Source: an uncultured Clostridia bacterium
GTDB taxonomy: Bacteria; Bacillota; Clostridia; Oscillospirales; Acutalibacteraceae
NCBI GenBank assembly: GCA_947627725.1
Contig: CANQXE010000008.1
Location: 1-64,000, forward strand
Direction of reading: 5' to 3'
DNA: 64,000 bases
In this document: positions 1,680 to 2,865 of the stretch, piece by piece
Position numbering within the stretch: the stretch's first letter is position 1
Layout: each line of letters begins with the position of its first letter
Translations under genes and position numbers: made by a program
The notes under the pieces: generated by a model
Seen by the model: the letters and a program-made list of their open reading frames with translations, nothing else
Database searches by the model: none
What the model was told of the DNA's origin: nothing

Positions 1680-1800
1680 AAATTAAAAAAGCGTCCGCAG
1701 GATTATCCTAAGGACGCAATACGGCTACTGCCTTTCTCCCTTAGTTTTGATTGACGCATACCTATCGGCACCGTCAGGCAGGATGGTTTCGAACTGCCTT
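1680..1800 (-). ncRNA. Structured 5' leader of queL-yhhQ, candidate preQ1/queuine-responsive riboswitch
   Basis: About 120 transcribed bases separate a strong promoter from queL. The hexamer AGGCAG occurs twice on the minus strand (1799-1794 and 1733-1728). One CTGCCT (1781-1776) lies between them and can pair with either copy. A GACG/CGTC hairpin follows the first pairing. The leader ends in a GC-rich stem (1717-1712 with 1696-1691) plus six Ts directly before the start codon, so it is both a terminator and a likely block on the ribosome site. The operon function suggests a Q-precursor ligand. I could not match it to preQ1 class I, II or III from memory. Confidence 0.55.
1691..1717 (-). terminator. 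Leader terminator in front of queL
   Basis: Stem GCGTCC/GGACGC with an inner TAGGAT-ATCCTG-like extension, followed on the minus strand by TTTTTT and then the queL ATG twelve bases after the stem. The position fits attenuation control. Confidence 0.7.
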
Positions 1801-1806
1801 TTAAGT

Positions 1807-1834
1807 ATTATATCATTTAAAGCGCGTTTGTCAA
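1807..1834 (-). promoter_or_regulatory. Sigma-A promoter for queL-yhhQ
   Basis: On the minus strand TTGACA (1834-1829) and TATAAT (1812-1807) are both perfect consensus hexamers, separated by 16 bases. Transcription would begin near 1800, leaving the structured leader. Confidence 0.85.
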
Positions 1835-1845
1835 TTATTTGTTTA

Positions 1846-2865
1846 TCAGATTATTTTTTTCTTGGAGGATATATCCATAATAATCACAAAGCAGCCGATT
1901 ATCATTAATACTGAAAGAGCAATATTTACACTTGAAAATTGTACAACGCCTATGCTCGTATTTGAAAAAACCGTAACATCTATAGGAATTAACAGTAAAA
2001 GAAGCTTTGTTATACAGTAGGAAAGGAGTCCGCCTAAAATTCTGAAAAAAAGGAAATCATAATATTTCATTTTTGTCCTTGTTATGACGGAAAGGAGCTG
2101 AAAATGAATACAAAGTCCGCCAAAGGACAAATAAGCGCCGAGCTGTGCCAACGGATATGAGCTGTTGCCGCATACGCCGCCTGTTATTTCAATAAACGGC
2201 ATAAGCTCTTTGGGAATAGAAAAGATTTTGTTAATTGCTGAAAAAAGAATGATAAACGCAGTTATATTGAGAACCGATTTGATTGCACTGTCAGTGGCGG
2301 CGGTCAAAGCGTCGCCAAAGCCTGTTTCCTCCGTATAGGAATAATAGCTTTGCGGTTTTCTCTTTTCACTGAAGGACAGAATAAGTCCGATAATAACAGA
2401 AGAAATAACATTTGAGAGGAATAAAATCACCCCTGCCTTTGTACTGCCGAGAGTAGCCGCGCCGACTGCTGTTATTATAAATCCGCACCCTCCGCAAAAG
2501 TTGAATCTAAGGAGTCTTTGTGCCTGCTTTTCATCAATTTCGCCTTTAATAAAAAGCTCGTTTGTTAGCAGCGCACCTGTGGGATATCCTCCTATTAATC
2601 CGAAAAATATGGCCGGGAAGGTAACCTGTGGCAGATTGAAAACATATACGCTGATAAATCCGAAGGCTTTTGCTATTATGTCCTTAGCGCTTGTTTTCAT
2701 AATGATAAAAAAGATTATTAAAAGCGGGGTAAGGCTCGGTATAATCGTATTTTGCGAGAGTGTTAATCCCTCAAGAGCGCCTGCCCTCGCATCCTTGGAA
2801 AAAATTATTAATATGCCTGCAACCGCGATAAGAATTACAAGCGTTAGAACATTTTTCCTTTTCAT
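1846..2865 (-). CDS. ylbJ: Sporulation integral membrane protein, YlbJ family
   Basis: Protein of 339 residues with about eight hydrophobic segments and the nucleoside-recognition/gate fold signature GGYPTG at residues 92-97, followed by a Cys-Gly-Gly-Cys-Gly segment near 124. YlbJ proteins in Bacillus and Clostridia are membrane proteins needed for proper spore formation; the transported molecule, if any, is not established. ATG 2865 sits behind AGGTGG. It is the last gene of the dusB-nagA-trmL direction, with a 73-base gap after trmL, and ends just before the queL promoter. Its presence is the clearest sign that this organism belongs to a sporulating lineage. Confidence 0.75.
   Translation of the reverse strand: MKRKNVLTLVILIAVAGILIIFSKDARAGALEGLTLSQNTIIPSLTPLLIIFFIIMKTSAKDIIAKAFGFISVYVFNLPQVTFPAIFFGLIGGYPTGALLTNELFIKGEIDEKQAQRLLRFNFCGGCGFIITAVGAATLGSTKAGVILFLSNVISSVIIGLILSFSEKRKPQSYYSYTEETGFGDALTAATDSAIKSVLNITAFIILFSAINKIFSIPKELMPFIEITGGVCGNSSYPLAQLGAYLSFGGLCIHFQLLSVITRTKMKYYDFLFFRILGGLLSYCITKLLLLLIPIDVTVFSNTSIGVVQFSSVNIALSVLMIIGCFVIIMDISSKKKII

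Follow-up and report, generated by a model that had tools for sequence, protein, structure and literature searches.

A predicted preQ1 class I, type I riboswitch split by an extra hairpin ahead of queL-yhhQ in an uncultured Clostridia bacterium

Introduction

The closest described counterpart of the leader analysed here is the preQ1 class I, type I riboswitch of Carnobacterium antarcticum (Can; Rfam family RF00522), which acts by translational control and for which a structure is available (PDB 8FB3). The accessible text of a review (PMC11625349) gives UU, UC and a tail C as the marks of type I and describes the base 10-34 pair as not needed in Can. The type I pocket of Can, in the accessible part of PMC8752633, consists of U6, U7, U16, C17, A30 and C31, with G5, C8, A12, A28 and U32. 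In the type II riboswitch of Bacillus subtilis, as far as the text of the same review extends, control is by transcription termination, L3 of the aptamer is common to the antiterminator, AC stands before the P1 3' strand, and no P3 is mentioned. The type III riboswitch of Escherichia coli yhhQ is described in the available text of PMC10622847 as having a variable 8-nt linker between P1 and L3 that is treated as flexible, an AAUC end before the A tract, a type III pocket and occlusion of the Shine-Dalgarno (SD) sequence. For preQ1 class II, the accessible text of the review describes a side hairpin, P4, that lies off the ligand and whose deletion alters kinetics more than affinity, and preQ1-I control of a queL operon, queK-qrtT-queL of Clostridioides difficile, is described in the accessible part of PMC11477304.

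We analysed the leader of a queL-yhhQ operon in a stretch of 64,000 nucleotides (the window) from an uncultured Clostridia bacterium of the Acutalibacteraceae (contig CANQXE010000008.1, assembly GCA_947627725.1). The leader shares with Can P1, the UU/UC marks, the A-rich L3, the CUA tail, the pocket bases and the downstream Q-salvage genes; unlike Can, it carries an extra hairpin (P3) and a predicted transcriptional antiterminator and terminator, and it is not detected by RF00522. It resembles the B. subtilis riboswitch in its predicted transcription termination and in the sharing of L3 with the antiterminator, but lacks its AC and has P3. With E. coli type III it has in common the interrupted P1-L3 site and the AAUC end, but neither the pocket nor the SD occlusion; with class II it has in common a side hairpin, but neither fold nor pocket. 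The C. difficile operon, which has another gene set, resembles it in the preQ1-I control described for queL.

Results

The queL-yhhQ operon and its leader

The operon lies on the minus strand. queL (1679-984, with ATG at 1679) encodes a protein of 231 residues to which the solved queuine lyase 6P78 was matched end to end (E = 3e-51), and it is followed by the Q-precursor transporter gene yhhQ/QPTR (260-982; TIGR00697, E = 7e-50; PF02592, E = 1.8e-45). Both matches bear out a preliminary description of the locus, which had named a QueL-like enzyme and a Q-precursor transporter from the sequence alone. The listed open reading frame of yhhQ begins with TTG at 1000 (1000-260); the products of relatives suggest ATG at 982, immediately after the queL stop. 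The gene adjoining upstream (1846-2865, minus strand) gave a sub-cut-off match to the model of the sporulation membrane protein YlbJ (142.6 of 304.65 bits).

For comparison, a QueL protein search matched 37 of 198 related genomes, 30 of which were fetched; with 41 loci in named genome contigs and the window, this gave 72 queL loci, many of them duplicates, with 60 distinct leaders. A strict pattern, in which GUUCG-N-AAC-CAUCC flanks a short stem and is followed by a variable stretch and CAAAACUA, was present in 51 of the 60 (in L043 with one extra C).

The consensus sigma-A type promoter of the preliminary description, TTGACA-16-TATAAT at 1834-1807 on the minus strand, was found to match at 12 of 12 positions, and the leader RNA, whose start is expected near 1800, extends from about 1800 to 1680 on the same strand. 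A promoter-like pair stands ahead of 38 of the 51 leaders, with the -10 box 5-9 nt 5' of P1 in 27 of the 38 (by eye). The leader looks like a real regulatory RNA; 1 of 200 shuffled leaders folded as well (z = -3.29).

Aptamer and pocket bases

By its sequence the leader looks like a preQ1 class I, type I aptamer. P1, identified by folding and covariation, is formed by AGGCAG (1799-1794) and CUGCCU (1781-1776), both on the minus strand, as are all leader features below. The loop between them, UUCGAAACCAUC (1793-1782), supplies U6 U7 C8 G9 A10 A11 A12 and U16 C17 in Can numbering and is kept in relatives; it contains both the UU after the P1 5' strand and the UC before the P1 3' strand. The A-rich strand L3, AAUCAAAA (1752-1745), is conserved in alignments and places A28-A30 at 1747-1745. 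It runs into CUAAGGG (1744-1738), which comprises C31 U32 A33 and the P2 3' strand and is also the 5' strand of an antiterminator.

The pocket bases G5, U6, U7, C8, A12, U16, C17, A28-A30, C31 and U32 are all present in the window and conserved in relatives, a result at odds with the earlier suggestion of a new aptamer, perhaps for queuine. With R1, a covariance model built from 26 P3-bearing leaders (23 of them from the 198 related genomes), G5 U6 U7 C8 G9 A12 U16 C17 were found in 88 of 94 matches and A11 in 84 of these 88, the remaining 6 lying outside the search pattern, in which U16, C17 and AAACUA were preset. Among 39 compact aptamers, A12-U32 was invariant, and bases 10 and 34 paired in 23 and covaried; in the window these two P2 bases are A and A, unpaired, and they are likewise so in 7 of the 88 relatives.

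P1 was paired in 99.6% of the cells of the 39 compact aptamers, with two-sided changes at 4 of 6 pairs, and showed such changes at 3 of 6 pairs in the 50 distinct rows of a model-fitted alignment (A3) that has the window among its leaders. Covariation in related leaders, proposed earlier as a check on the AGGCAG/CTGCCT pairs, supports the pairing of the first AGGCAG; a second one occurs downstream in 1 of the 51 leaders. On both strands of the 64-kb window AGGCAG occurs 49 times, against 21 copies expected.

A hairpin between P1 and L3

L3 is not directly continuous with P1 in the window. Exactly between them lies a 23-nt hairpin, P3 (GACGGUGCCGAUAGGUAUGCGUC, 1775-1753, loop GAUA at 1766-1763), and it is this insertion, with the other aptamer parts in place, that makes the window aptamer a variant. 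Extra sequence at exactly this position was found in 46 of the 51 leaders, the window included; the remaining 5 are short. In a fold test of 45 of the 46 inserts, L043 being excluded, 32 gave more stable folds than shuffled sequences (p < 0.05; mean z = -2.65). The gap between P1 and P3 was at most 1 nt in 40 of the 45, and the distance from P3 to CAAAACUA was 2-5 nt in every one. With so short a gap and so constant a distance, P3 could stack under P1 while the length of L3 is kept.

Cells of P1 and P3 changed on both sides were more numerous than in shuffles in each of three alignments. The MAFFT alignment A1, which mis-registers P3 across insert lengths, gave 49 against 21; the counts were redone on the model-fitted alignments A3 (126 against 37) and A4 (89 against 25), which are biased towards their structure. 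In 25 of the 45 inserts, in the queL branch and including the window (1768-1761), a C-G or U-G pair closes a P3 loop that reads AAUA or GAUA, and this is more conservation than a mere spacer would need.

Detection by covariance models

The preliminary description had proposed a search for a clear Rfam match to preQ1 class I, II or III. No preQ1 class was found at the leader, the only matches at gathering score being four tRNAs. Over positions 1500-2000, preQ1-II (RF01054) and preQ1-III (RF02680) were both absent from the 6 weak matches up to E = 10, which look like chance. RF00522 gave no match at the window; the 13 weak matches that it gave in the rest of the genome were all below its cut-off. 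Among the 198 relatives, this cut-off of 39 bits was passed in 1, and E <= 0.05 was reached in 28. When 12 sources were searched with RF00522, five aligned over the full length below the cut-off (L067 at 27.4 bits; L028, L030 and L065 at 25.6 bits; L029 at 22.8 bits), and no match was obtained in compact L063 or in six insert-bearing sources. Compact relatives likewise score below the cut-off, and the full-length alignment to compact L123 reached 30.0 bits, again sub-cut-off.

RF00522 most likely misses the window leader because the hairpin splits the aptamer. R2, a covariance model built from the 39 compact aptamers without P3, matched the window aptamer in two pieces flanking P3, at 28.8 bits (model positions 1-24, 1799-1776) and 16 bits (1767-1734). 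These pieces were the top two in the 2.46-Mb genome, the next reaching 13.8 bits, among the 150 of 1483 first-look candidates that were scored.

Terminator and antiterminator

Folding placed an intrinsic terminator at 1717-1685, with a GC stem (1717-1691) and T6 (1690-1685). The preliminary description had recognized both elements but had the two together end 12 bases before queL; it is the stem that ends there, 12 bases before the ATG. A consensus terminator scan lists no terminator at the leader, probably because its stem contains an internal mismatch. A script identified a stem with a T run behind it in 46 of the 51 leaders and in none of L043, L053, L060, L061 and L062, L053 having one by eye. 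These data support the earlier view of a Q-base-linked, riboswitch-like leader with a terminator before queL-yhhQ.

The 5' half of the terminator contains UCCUUAG (1714-1708), the 3' strand of the antiterminator. CUAAGGG can thus pair either into the aptamer, as P2, or with UCCUUAG, and this, rather than the AGGCAG/CTGCCT pair that had been taken for the switch, is the exclusive pairing that is conserved. At least 5 contiguous Watson-Crick antiterminator pairs were possible in 39 of the 46 terminator-bearing leaders, compared with 13.9% of letter shuffles, and at least 6 in 23 of the 46, compared with 3.4%, counts that are inflated by relatedness and plain conservation. Covarying cases include CUAUGGA/UCCGUAG (L006) and CUAGG/CCUAG (L010). 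The 5 compact queL leaders offer 3-5 antiterminator pairs, and the 5 pairs available in L063 do not involve CUA.

When the transcript was folded as it grows, the antiterminator was optimal at lengths of 91-105 nt, by 2 to 6.5 kcal/mol over the fold in which the tail CAAAACUAAG is blocked; from 107 nt on, the terminator fold prevailed whether the tail was blocked or free. Since the terminator is favoured either way from this length, switching must be kinetic. In the mechanism that we propose, an H-type pseudoknot made of P1, the loop and the A-rich tail L3-CUA would bind preQ1, two molecules of which would stack in it as in type I. Binding would hold CUAAGGG in the aptamer and leave UCCUUAG free, so that the terminator would be built and queL-yhhQ turned off; without preQ1, CUAAGGG would pair with UCCUUAG once this is transcribed, the terminator would be delayed and RNA polymerase would pass. 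As CUAAGGG is shared by aptamer and antiterminator and the choice is kinetic, preQ1 should shut the operon, and a preQ1 OFF switch for queL-yhhQ is the most likely reading of the leader.

We also considered a preQ1-I aptamer with mainly translational control, in which the terminator-like stem would hide the start region and termination would be secondary. This stem does abut the queL start codon, and in related queT leaders the P2 3' strand serves as the SD sequence (AAGGAG 7 nt before the start in L125 and 10 nt in L117). However, 46 of the 51 leaders have a T run after the stem, the antiterminator complementarity is conserved, and in the window this SD-like strand is about 60 nt away from the queL ATG; we therefore judge mainly translational control improbable. 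The queL start codon of the window lies 5 nt past the T run, and no SD sequence was found for it. An SD-like sequence stood in position at 9 of 51 queL starts, compared with 43 of 56 window ORFs, the latter by a laxer test. In 32 of the 46 leaders the T run starts at most 16 nt 5' of the queL ATG (by eye), and an SD-like sequence occurs in 3 of these 32.

Distribution among relatives

R1 matched 53 of 60 sources searched, L067 on the other strand, ahead of a yhhQ-like gene; L064, L066 and L068-L072 were unmatched. At E <= 0.01 it matched 92 of the 198 relatives, with 93 matches, 24 of them compact and 69 with a P3-sized insert (span of at least 52 nt), the latter including the doubtful L128 and L130, and a few weak matches being doubtful. 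L128 and a second match in L123 look false, and L130 is uncertain as an R1 match. In a class-wide sample, R1 matched 110 of 391 genomes, and 17 of 119 matches spanned at least 52 nt (by eye).

Among 20 loci of the same genus, 13 carried the insert ahead of a QueT gene, and in 12 of these the tail of the aptamer contained AAGGAG just upstream of the start; L112, L115, L116 and L123 were compact, L126 stood ahead of yhhQ, and L128 and L130 were doubtful. Across 68 further loci, the downstream ORF was a Q gene in 62 (QueT in 50, YhhQ/QPTR in 8, QueL in 3 and QueC in 1), and the ORFs picked by script in the other 6 had no Q-gene resemblance; Pfam names were obtained for seven full downstream products and one fragment. 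The insert/compact label, with L130 counted as insert-bearing, changes 10 times on a quickly built tree of 48 QueT proteins, and at least 5 of these changes are forced by well-supported branches. On this tree, gain of the insert is indistinguishable from loss. A search of viral contigs by the loop pattern returned 8 stretches, none followed by P1 and tail, which look like one conserved coding stretch; by that one pattern, no phage copy was found.

In L126 (G021, 1674-1414, minus strand), the same split riboswitch and terminator precede a queL reduced to an in-frame ORF of 43 codons (by eye), which retains the first residues and the C-terminal end of QueL before yhhQ and is matched in the QueL search over residues 205-231 only; the enzyme has been lost, and the start and the yhhQ junction have been kept. 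The queT leader L130 (606-681, plus strand) differs in P1 and loop, has AC ahead of the P1 3' strand and the tail AAAACAAAACUAAGGAG with a hairpin-like insert, and is possibly a type II aptamer that also bears P3; it scored 26.6 bits with R1 and 18.5 bits with RF00522. In L112 (708-2371, plus strand), the gene after a compact preQ1-I aptamer is not a Q gene but one of the phage integrase family (PF00589, E = 1.2e-17), as if an element had inserted directly behind the riboswitch.

Queuosine metabolism and alternative readings

In the genome of the window, tgt and queA adjoin, and no QueT match was found. The sole QueC-family match covers residues 4-64 of 210 within a 397-residue frame, clears the family cut-off together with its neighbours (29.2 bits) and is probably another enzyme. 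De novo synthesis has likely been lost, and the organism is likely a salvager that needs to make preQ1 from queuine, for which preQ1 feedback makes sense.

The gene content could also be read as pointing to queuine, the substrate of QueL, as a shifted ligand that would govern the operon in place of preQ1. QueL consumes queuine, the partner transporter may import it (QPTR of Chlamydia trachomatis is described as a queuine importer in the accessible part of the source), and in this clade P3-split aptamers precede queL. Against this, the window has the same pocket bases as the preQ1 type I aptamer, queT and yhhQ genes too are preceded by P3-split aptamers, and queL of C. difficile is already under a preQ1-I riboswitch in the accessible text of PMC11477304. 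As QueL makes preQ1, preQ1 is the natural feedback signal, and we consider a queuine-responsive leader very improbable.

The two mutually exclusive hexamer pairings of the preliminary description, in which both AGGCAG copies (1799-1794 and 1733-1728) would compete for the single CUGCCU between them (CTGCCT, 1781-1776) as a new switch geometry, are indeed offered by the window but can be given almost no weight, since the first copy belongs to P1 of a known aptamer, the P1 5' strand is repeated downstream in 1 of the 51 distinct leaders, the window's own, and this repeat overlaps a small hairpin (GGC-AGUA-GCC, 1732-1723) that recurs at this site in many relatives (by eye) with varying sequence and without the hexamer.

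Discussion

With high confidence we read the leader as a preQ1 class I, type I riboswitch that carries an extra hairpin, P3, at the P1/L3 boundary and would act as a transcription-terminating OFF switch for queL-yhhQ. Its computed support comprises homology, pocket identity, covariation in P1 and P3, the alternative pairing with its conservation, and gene context; we infer the ligand, its stoichiometry, the direction of regulation and the role of P3.

The class, the ligand and the gene context are known, and the split aptamer and its spread are, to the extent covered here, new. A hairpin between P1 and L3 of preQ1-I is not described in the accessible texts of PMC11625349, PMC8752633, PMC10622847 and PMC2258182; the comparison covers these four, and an earlier description is possible in the defining comparative study (McCown 2014), which lies outside it. 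The nearest precedents are the variable linker of E. coli type III, at the same site, and the P4 hairpin of class II.

P3 probably stacks below P1, away from the ligand, and would close what would otherwise be a floppy linker. More speculatively, P3 could be a functional module whose capped loop, in the queL branch, takes part in a conserved contact, or is a binding site for a protein or a second signal, and in this way tunes or gates preQ1 sensing; we regard this as rather unlikely.

One of the smallest riboswitch folds seems able to take up a hairpin at a single fixed position, repeatedly gained or lost, so that compactness would not be a defining trait. P3-interrupted preQ1-I aptamers are common among the relatives, yet hidden from the standard RNA-family search, and the difference between 92 of 198 genomes matched by R1 and 1 of 198 by RF00522 explains how annotation can miss preQ1 control in this group. 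The natural series without P3, with a short P3 and with a long P3 offers a means to ask how a side hairpin affects folding speed and ligand response. If P3 is indeed a functional module, P3-split type I aptamers would constitute a distinct and largely unannotated preQ1 subgroup of Clostridia.
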